Below are positions 22,801 to 25,800 of a DNA stretch of 64,000 bases, piece by piece (position 1 is the first letter of the stretch; every line of letters starts with the position of its first letter). A program made the translations under genes and the position numbers. Under the pieces are notes generated by a model. It made no database searches and was not told the origin of the DNA. It saw only the letters and a program-made list of their open reading frames with translations. Location: contig NC_058499.1 in assembly GCF_020382885.2 (NCBI RefSeq), positions 11,765,872 through 11,829,871 on the forward strand. Reading direction: 5' to 3'. This DNA is from Scatophagus argus (taxonomy: Eukaryota > Chordata > Actinopteri > Scatophagidae).

Positions 22801-25800
22801 ACCCATTGACCCTGCCTTTCAAGTACACACTATAACTCTTTGTACACTGAGATAAATAGAGGTCAAAGCAGGTGTACTGTGTATACTGAGGGCCTTTTTC
22901 TGTGGGTTCAAGATAGCCAAAAGAGCTTCCCACCCCCAGTGTGTGCTGACTGAGTGTCTTACAGAGGTATTAATACCCTAGCTGAAAATAGCCCGAGTCT
23001 TCTACTCCATGTATGTCACTGGCCTGGGTGGGGCCAAACCATGCCAGGCCAATGCTGGCGACTGTAGCAGCGCTGCAGAAACATACTGTTTTACCTCACG
23101 CTCTCCTCTCTGCAAACCGCAAGTGAGGCAGAACCCTTTGGCCTAACACACACACTCACAGCTAGACTGTGGCCTGGACTCCGGGACAGGGACCATAAGG
23201 ACGGGATAAACTCGTGCATGCTGCAGCCATGGTGAAATGTCTGATCCGCATCACCACCCGGGTGAACGTCCACCTACGTATGATCAACCACTGCTACCGG
23301 GACGTGAAGGTTCGCGTGCTGAGCCTGGGGCCTCGTATGCTGGGCAAGGCCCTGGGCGTCCTGCCCCTGTACCCTGCCCTGATGGGGCAGCAAGAATCTG
23401 GCAGCACCAGCCCTCTTCCTGGCACACCATTACCCTGCGTTCAGCCCAGCAGCCCTACAGGTAAACTCATCACAGGGTGTGCTTCAGATGGAGGTGCCAA
23501 CAGCTTTCTCTGTTCTAAATCAGCCTCTGCTGCATCACTGTTGGTGGAGGGATAGCATTCCTGTGGTTGTTTGTGTCTCCAGGAGGTCTGAGGTTTTGAG
23601 TATCTTCTGATTTTTTTTTCTCAGTGCTTTTGTCATTTGAAGACTCCATATGTAGCAGCTGTATTTGGTTCCAAGTAGTATACAGTATTTGAAAGTGGTG
23701 TTAAATTTGTGTTATAGAGTTTGAGCTTTACAGCTGCGAACATTATAAGTACAAATTAAACAATGCCTTTTCCGTTCACAGTTGTGAGCATAAGACGTGA
23801 TAAGATGAGGCACTGAGTAAACACCGAGTAAAGATGGCTGCAGACGCTCATCCAGCCTTTATGCTTCCTTCTCTTCACTTGACAGAAGTTTCATGTCAGC
23901 ACAGGCTTAGACACTTGACATAATCTGTCCTACTTTTCCTTTTCCCGTGATTTGCTTCCTCATCAAAAGCTGAAGTTTAATCCCCTCTCTTTATACTGAA
24001 GGTGTAATGTTGCTGCTTTGACACGCTGGAGAATGTGATAGCGTCAGCAAAGTGCTCAAACCACAGCTCATCTTCACTGACATGCACAAAGTAGTGAGCC
24101 TCTCACTTACTGTGCTGTAACCTCTACTGTGGAATGAACGGTGCGGTCGTACAGTAACAGTGAAGTACATTTGTCATGCCCTGAAGCTAGTGCTTTGTAG
24201 AATGGTTTTAGGGAGGTGTAGATTTTGCAGTACCATTTCTGCTGAGGTGGCTACTGTACTGTTCTCCTTTAATACATATACTGGGTAATGTTGCATTCCA
24301 GTGAGAAATTAAATTCTTTATATTTTTATATTGTATTTTTAGTCTCTTTTTTTATTTTTTGATATGGATGTGACTGGAATTATTTCAGATGCAGATGGCT
24401 TTCACTTCCTCACCTGTATTTATTTGTGATGAAATGACAAGTCATCATCTCCTGTTTAGATAACTTTTAGATAGTTTAGATAGTGTGTTTTTGTTTTTGT
24501 TTTTTGCATTCTTTGCTTGTTTCCTCCTATGTTACATGATTATCCGGCAAATAAAATCAGCAGCTTGTGTGTATGTACATAATAGACCAAGTCCAAATAT
24601 CTCAAAGTAAATAGAAGGAGTATGGACATGTTACAGTGTCCTTAAACATTGATCATTCCAGTATAGACGTCCAAAGTCCCAGGTTCCCATCACATGTCTC
24701 ATTTAGGCTGTTGAGGAGATAATGCTGTTTTGCTTCACTGTCTTCACGTCTTCACTTTTACCAGAAGGAGATCATCTGTGTTTGTTTAATCAGTCATGTG
24801 CACATGAAGTAAAAGTAGCCCAGTATGTATTTGTTTCTCTTCATCAGGCTACACCAAAGAGCGTGACCAGTTAATTGCAAACGCTTGGCCCTCATACACT
24901 GCTAGTTTGAATATTTACATTATCGCAGAAAGGAGGAGTAGCTTTGAAGCACGCTATTCTTTTTGTATGATAAAATTTAGCATTAAACAGACACATTTAC
25001 TGCTCTTTGTCAACCTCAGTGTCATTTGCAGCCACTGCAGTGGGCATGTGGAGGCGCGGCTGCAGTAACTAGCTATTCTGTGTTGCCCCTTGGTGTGAGT
25101 GTGTGATGTCTGTGTGTGTCAGTCCAGAGTACACCCCGCCTCTCGCCTCTTTTAAGCAACCTGCATGGATAAGCCGCATAGAAAATGAATGAATGAATTA
25201 TGTTATTTCGATTCAATTCAATTCAGTTTATTTATATAGTGCCAATTCACAACAAAAGTCATCTCATGGCACTTTCCAATTAGAGCAGGTCTGGACCAAA
25301 CTCTTTAATTAAGTTGTAATACAGAGAACCCAACATTCCCAAGCAAGCACTTGGCGACAGTGGTGAGGAAAAACCTCGGAGCAGACCCCGGCTTAAGGTG
25401 GGCGACCATCTGCCTTGACCGGTTGGTTGTTTTTTTGGCTGTTTGGTGCTGAAGCAGTCAGATTAATTATTAAGTTCCACATCAGCTCATGAACACTTTG
25501 CACAATGAGGTTAATGTCCTGTCAGCTCGACAGCTTGATCAGATGTCAGTGTTCTGTAAGAGCAGTAATGTTTTAAAATGTGTGTAACATTCCCTTTTCC
25601 TCCTGCCTGTTTCCCTCCTCTTCCTCCCTGAACCACAAGGTCTGGAGTCGTTGCGTGACAGTGCCCATTCTACACCGGTGCGTTCAGTGTCCCATGGGGA
25701 ATCTTTCATGCCACGCTCCCGGAGCCAGGCCACAGACGCCAGCGAGAGGACCGCTGTGATCTCGGACGAGGCCTACAGCCCCTCCGACAGCGTCCTGCCC

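Follow-up and report, generated by a model that had tools for sequence, protein, structure and literature searches.

Positions 23229–23460 on the plus strand of the Scatophagus argus window (the whole 64,000-nucleotide stretch of DNA that was analysed) are probably the protein-coding portion of an evolutionarily old alternative first exon in frmd5, through which the gene would give rise to a FERM-less, domain-swapped modulator with a task of its own and not to a mere decoy of the full-length protein. A FERM-less, membrane-anchored isoform starting from such an exon had been proposed in an earlier note on this DNA and was borne out by spliced sequences and by conservation in many vertebrates.

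The frmd5 locus and the alternative first exon

The exons of full-length frmd5 were mapped by tblastn with P0135, a teleost FRMD5 protein of 572 aa. Residues 33–379 of this query placed the FERM and FERM-adjacent exons, together with their introns, at 11491–22184 of the plus strand (the first coding exon was not among the exons placed in the window). The exon preceding the last intron finishes at 22184 in phase 1 (donor G/GTAAG). The terminal coding exon common to both forms (25640–26226, plus strand) was matched by tblastn with full-length as well as short forms (up to 26223) and contains the Ser/Pro linker, the membrane helix and the C-terminal tail, with the stop codon at 26224–26226. Because the exons found by tblastn run over 11491–22184 and are then followed by the one at 25640, the alternative exon lies in the last frmd5 intron, where the earlier note had placed it.

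The alternative first exon has a coding part of 77 codons and one additional nucleotide, as established by direct reading, tblastn and conservation. Its start codon (23229–23231) is located in GCAGCCATGG, and an in-frame TAA was read 33 bases upstream, at 23196–23198 of the plus strand. The short form thus has a first exon of its own with an upstream stop and a start codon, as looked for in the case of an alternative promoter. The 232 nt between the ATG and 23460 leave the exon in phase 1, and the donor following it reads CTACAG/GTAAAC. The intron leading to the terminal exon (23461–25639, plus strand, 2179 nt) begins with GT and ends with AG, its acceptor (CACAAG) ending at 25639 with a pyrimidine tract before it. 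Since the exons ending at 22184 and 23460 are both in phase 1, either can feed the terminal exon at 25640. The translation of 23229–23460 joined to 25640–26226 gave 272 residues with one final stop, which reproduced the frame and length of the FERM-less product that had been predicted; the FERM and FERM-adjacent exons at 11491–22184 are omitted from it. The tblastn map, the translation and the spliced relatives described below make the short form a product of the FRMD5 gene, encoded in its locus and having an in-frame coding exon in common with the full-length form.

The GC content at codon positions 1, 2 and 3 was 0.62, 0.48 and 0.74 in the alternative exon and 0.61, 0.44 and 0.71 in the terminal exon, with a GC content of 0.41 in the intron. 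The plus strand of all 64 kb was scanned for any strong-Kozak ATG that opens 77 codons or more and has a phase-1 G/GTRA donor no less than 200 nt into the frame; this single site was revealed. No repeats of at least 20 bases were found within 22900–26300. Every feature formerly named for the exon (its 77 codons, ATG, upstream stop, GC bias at third positions, CCAAT box and phase-1 donor) was present according to direct reading and composition. A five-codon upstream frame (ATG CTG CAG CCA TGG TGA, 23218–23235) was also noticed, which overlaps the short form's ATG and may tune initiation there.

The plus-strand region directly before the start codon, 22963–23228, was identified by tblastn of upstream peptides as a conserved non-coding 5′ flank or 5′ UTR, likely with a putative internal promoter. 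The upstream peptides of unspliced relatives matched this region in 9 of 19 cases, one of the nine over 33 bases only. No flank match was obtained for the remaining ten, of which nine, mostly of the second paralogue type, gave none at all and P0089 matched only a low-complexity stretch elsewhere. As these matches shift from one frame to another and run through two stops that interrupt the frame of the exon, the flank appears to be conserved as DNA and not as protein, and such conservation would fit a promoter or a 5′ UTR. A CCAAT word read at 23049–23053 (plus strand), 176 bases before the ATG, is a putative promoter element, a single word of this kind being weak evidence of a promoter. No TATA-like word was found in 22500–23228, and the CpG observed/expected ratio peaked at just 0.66 over 23200–23399, close to that of the terminal exon. 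From the flank matches and from the short forms starting at this Met, we infer that transcription begins inside the last intron, from an internal promoter.

Elsewhere in the window, two long open frames on the minus strand (36052–38926) matched Bloom helicase families (BLM_N with an E-value of 3e-10 and, weakly, BDHCT_assoc with 0.0093, below its cut-off); this region is probably a blm gene. A tRNA-Sec was called by ARAGORN on the minus strand at 7856–7946, upstream of the first matched FERM exon. The call is unsupported and probably spurious because Rfam gave no match at the gathering score in the window.

Distribution and spliced sequences in relatives

The first search for relatives was performed with the joined protein as a word query and with scoring on residues 1–77 only. 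These residues were matched at E ≤ 0.1 in 111 of 128 candidates (best E-value 1.2e-39), ranging from teleosts to lamprey. The named sources included many percomorphs, salmonids, pike, carps, zebrafish, catfish, Albula, Megalops and Paramormyrops and, beyond teleosts, sturgeon (Acipenser), bichir (Polypterus) and two lampreys (Petromyzon at 61% identity). Among the matches with a source name, many were 250–290 aa long, had no FERM family and carried the FRMD5 tail at their end. P0042, named "FERM domain-containing protein 5 isoform X4 [Danio rerio]" and 274 aa long, corresponds to the short form. The X prefix in isoform names denotes automatic models.

No tetrapods were found among the 128 candidates of the first search, which was probably a limit of common words. 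With P0095 as the query, the matches listed included duck, three passerines, chinchilla, bat, cattle, hamster, Tasmanian devil and opossum. They were the best 120 of 422 (another search gave the best 120 of 1115), and counts from either search are lower bounds. In the tree, P0095 joined birds and mammals with support of 100/98. The bird and mammal homologues among the matches listed were 248–260 aa long, except that one opossum model, extended at the N-terminus, reached 338 aa. Four bird proteins start with MVKCLVKIKT and the mammal proteins with MGKSLIKI, which in the 338-aa opossum model follows the extension, and the bird and mammal short forms all reach GLESLRDS at the same point. A search of other fish and tetrapods with the 77 residues, as the earlier note had advised, thus revealed a conserved frame in teleosts and also in sturgeon, bichir, lamprey, birds and mammals; the question it had left about mammals is answered in the affirmative, with a more diverged version of the short form.

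The exon was detected in both teleost paralogue types, and both occur in one species in pike (P0030/P0101) and Fundulus (P0016/P0226). In the tree, from which P0104 and P0259 were left out, one type was a clade with support of 100/100, and the other was one group with weak bootstrap support (12/96). The teleost duplication gave two copies of the gene. Since each type includes carp-like fish and percomorphs, and some species have both, both copies kept the exon after this duplication. In catfish short forms (P0098–P0100 and P0102–P0104) the module was kept, but the terminal exon lacked the LESLRD motif with which it otherwise starts.

A profile search with the module picked out 141 of the 261 collected proteins. 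The class of spliced proteins contained 101 of them and was reduced to 96 by removing the long models P0121, P0131, P0162, P0164 and P0189, whose partial matches were treated as artefacts and not as spliced short forms. Another 29 of the 141 were classed as open, among them the window itself, two proteins from lamprey and a fusion (P0105).

The lgn/ena contig proteins with the module, 47 in number, fell into two groups. The frame continued past the exon end in 25 of them, with G-K at this point in 23, which fits a G/GTAAR donor, and with G-A and G-N in the other two. In the remaining 22, the module ran on into the terminal exon without interruption, and the Met of the module is the first residue of every one of these proteins. 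The reading past the exon end indicates that the lgn/ena proteins were called without intron removal, and the 22 direct joins should therefore derive from already spliced sequence. For 18 of these 22, the longest contig of the cluster fell short of the 2998 nt that the short form covers from start to stop in the window's genomic sequence, a span that may differ in the relatives. The direct joins, which come from the sequences of relatives and not of Scatophagus argus, have the first exon spliced to the common exon and are evidence that spliced RNA of this structure exists in relatives.

Constraint on the N-terminal module and its predicted properties

Segment identities, hydrophobic moment and charge delimited a conserved basic N-terminal module of residues 1–51 (23229–23381, plus strand). 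Identities were taken from an alignment of 70 short forms (A1), in which the window form is represented by P0002, with identity at 255 of 272 residues. In 16 window-type sequences (11 named percomorphs and 5 without a source name), the mean pairwise identity was 0.98 for residues 1–51 versus 0.63 for the spacer formed by residues 52–77. Variable columns amounted to 7 of 51 in the module versus 23 of 26 in the spacer, with a p-value (1e-10) that is too good because the boundary between the two was chosen after viewing the alignment.

Between lamprey and jawed vertebrates the module outlasts both the tail and the membrane helix. The identity of lamprey P0107 to four non-mammal groups was 0.70–0.77 for the module, 0.45–0.48 for the tail and 0.28–0.34 for the membrane helix, the respective values relative to mammals being 0.49, 0.41 and 0.29. 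The mammal module was 0.52–0.53 identical to that of other jawed groups, while the tail reached 0.80–0.93, and the module identity within five mammals was 0.79. Such divergence of the module with the tail kept suggests that the pressure on the module has changed in mammals. Cys4 was kept in 64 of 65 non-mammal rows of A1 and lost in all five mammals (P0219, P0220, P0221, P0222 and P0224), all of which have gained Gly2 (MGKS). We take Cys4 of MVKC to be a possible acylation site and Gly2 of MGKS a possible, although non-ideal, start for myristoylation.

The net charge of the module was +8 to +11 in eight sequences. Residues 4–19 alternated between hydrophobic and polar more than shuffled sequences did (p 0.004–0.017) in all eight, which are homologous and not independent of each other. 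In the same shuffle test an amphipathic pattern was not found for residues 25–34 in any of the eight sequences nor for residues 35–47 in seven of them. No Pfam family was detected at E ≤ 0.01 when the 69 members of the set A2 were each scanned whole. The three FERM lobes (PF09379, PF00373 and PF09380) had no match in these members, nor in the window's two exons scanned apart, so the short form does not qualify as a FERM-domain protein in the Pfam scan.

A search by sequence found no PDB chain matching the module. The mean AlphaFold2 pLDDT was 54 for whole P0002 and 63 for the 77 residues, the first 30 residues being modelled with a pLDDT of about 81 and no strand. A Foldseek search with the weak module model gave a best E-value of 9.9; two AlphaFold2 models and one Foldseek search thus yielded nothing usable as a fold for the module. 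The P0002 model contained a helix at residues 187–226, with a block of pLDDT 85–95 over residues 191–220, i.e., the one long hydrophobic helix of a single-pass protein. As this common helix was the sole part modelled with confidence, the short form is likely a membrane protein.

Alternative readings and the putative role of the short form

The exon could alternatively be read as mainly an internal cassette of full-length FRMD5, adding an insert of about 78 residues between the FERM-adjacent and terminal exons. The long models having both HISIME (encoded at the end of the penultimate exon) and LESLRD (from the start of the terminal exon) numbered 86, and in 11 of them the module was placed between the two motifs. 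Six of the 11 showed the junction HISIME-A-MVKC, which fits an acceptor at CAG/CCATG, and CAG/CC is present in the window at 23224–23228. However, no clear pyrimidine tract was seen before it in the window, and the other 75 of the 86 long models skip the exon, with HISIME joined directly to LESLRD. Moreover, HISIME is absent from all 22 spliced lgn/ena proteins, each of which begins with the Met of the module, although this comparison is biased since proteins longer than 476 or 455 aa were excluded from two candidate sets (one set allowed up to 714 aa). In P0037, P0041, P0047 and P0207 other residues precede the Met, which looks like predictors forcing in every coding exon, and we think that the 11 internal-exon models are mostly products of gene predictors. 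A cassette role as the main one is accordingly considered very unlikely. A chance open frame, or a gene-prediction artefact without a transcript, has a still smaller, practically negligible probability; a frame of 77 codons is weak evidence by itself and many of the database entries are automatic models, but the frame, boundary and phase are conserved across vertebrates and spliced contig proteins exist. Chance was rejected because of this conservation.

N-terminally truncated decoys are a common kind of protein. The possibility that the short form is a passive dominant-negative decoy with the new N-terminus as filler agrees with the loss of FERM and the retention of the whole terminal exon, and competition had been put forward in the earlier note. 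Filler is not expected, however, at an identity as high as that among the 16 window-type fish sequences or between lamprey and the non-mammal jawed vertebrates. A decoy does not need an N-terminus so conserved, and the conservation suggests a task beyond that of a decoy, an argument that is weaker in mammals (0.79 within the five and 0.49–0.53 to other groups). A purely passive role is therefore regarded as quite unlikely, and competition of the short form with full-length FRMD5 is possible. More speculatively, the short form may be an old vertebrate membrane protein nested in FRMD5, with the module as an undescribed domain and a membrane attachment that may have changed in mammals; this view is considered doubtful.

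According to the preferred reading, that of an alternative first exon, transcription would start inside the last intron, and a phase-1 junction would connect the exon with the terminal one, as in the spliced sequences of relatives. The 272-aa protein expected from the frame and its conservation would consist of the basic module of about 51 residues, a variable Ser/Pro spacer and the FRMD5 linker, helix and tail, without the FERM and FERM-adjacent region. Through the common helix it would share its membranes with full-length FRMD5 and, with the topology that we assume, its N-terminus would face the cytosol in the position otherwise taken by the FERM domain. There the basic, amphipathic module could bind acidic lipid or a specific partner, and the short form would enter FRMD5 complexes through the common linker, helix or tail with a different interaction surface.

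The short form is already annotated in sequence databases under FRMD5 names. UniRef entries "FERM domain containing 5" of 248–256 aa come from cattle, hamster, duck and others, with no function attached. The earlier note knew of no description of such a form. This agrees with the open-licence literature searched, in which no published description of a FERM-less FRMD5 form was found (a weak negative), but not with the databases, where the zebrafish isoform X4 is listed. The portion of PMC7561204 available to us reports a tissue-specific FRMD5 splice event traced to an ancestor with fish, and the accessible part of PMC8977850 includes an FRMD5 transcript, NM_001286491.2, with its own 5′ UTR; either may be the short form.

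Internal promoters are already known to give isoforms that lack a domain. The short form and full-length FRMD5 come from the same gene and have the same terminal exon with linker, membrane helix and tail, whereas the FERM and FERM-adjacent region is replaced by the approximately 51-residue module with no Pfam match. FRMD5 models of 320–340 aa (P0122, P0138 and P0236) likewise derive from the same gene and have a shortened N-terminus and the same tail, but they have PF09380, with or without PF08736, and are outside the module-bearing set. They belong to a second shortened class of 322–336 aa (P0122, P0138, P0139, P0176 and P0236), in which the FERM C-lobe is kept and which may point to a further internal start. 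The short forms of dystrophin, dp71 among them, are similarly N-terminally truncated proteins from an internal promoter, as far as covered by the part of PMC7372313 at hand; dystrophin is an unrelated protein, and a novel, conserved module is gained at the N-terminus of the FRMD5 short form, unlike in dp71.

Links of FRMD5 with tumour progression and with neurodevelopment are reported in a mouse Frmd5 study (PMC13086079), in which, according to the sections of the paper available, the loxP sites follow exons 2 and 4 and a Flag tag precedes exon 1. With the gene structure described here, and if the mouse has a form like that of hamster (P0222), this loxP allele would spare the short form and the Flag tag would miss it. 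More generally, if the short form has a function of its own, knockouts in early FRMD5 exons leave it in place, and with it the 51-residue module, which is uncatalogued and deeply conserved.
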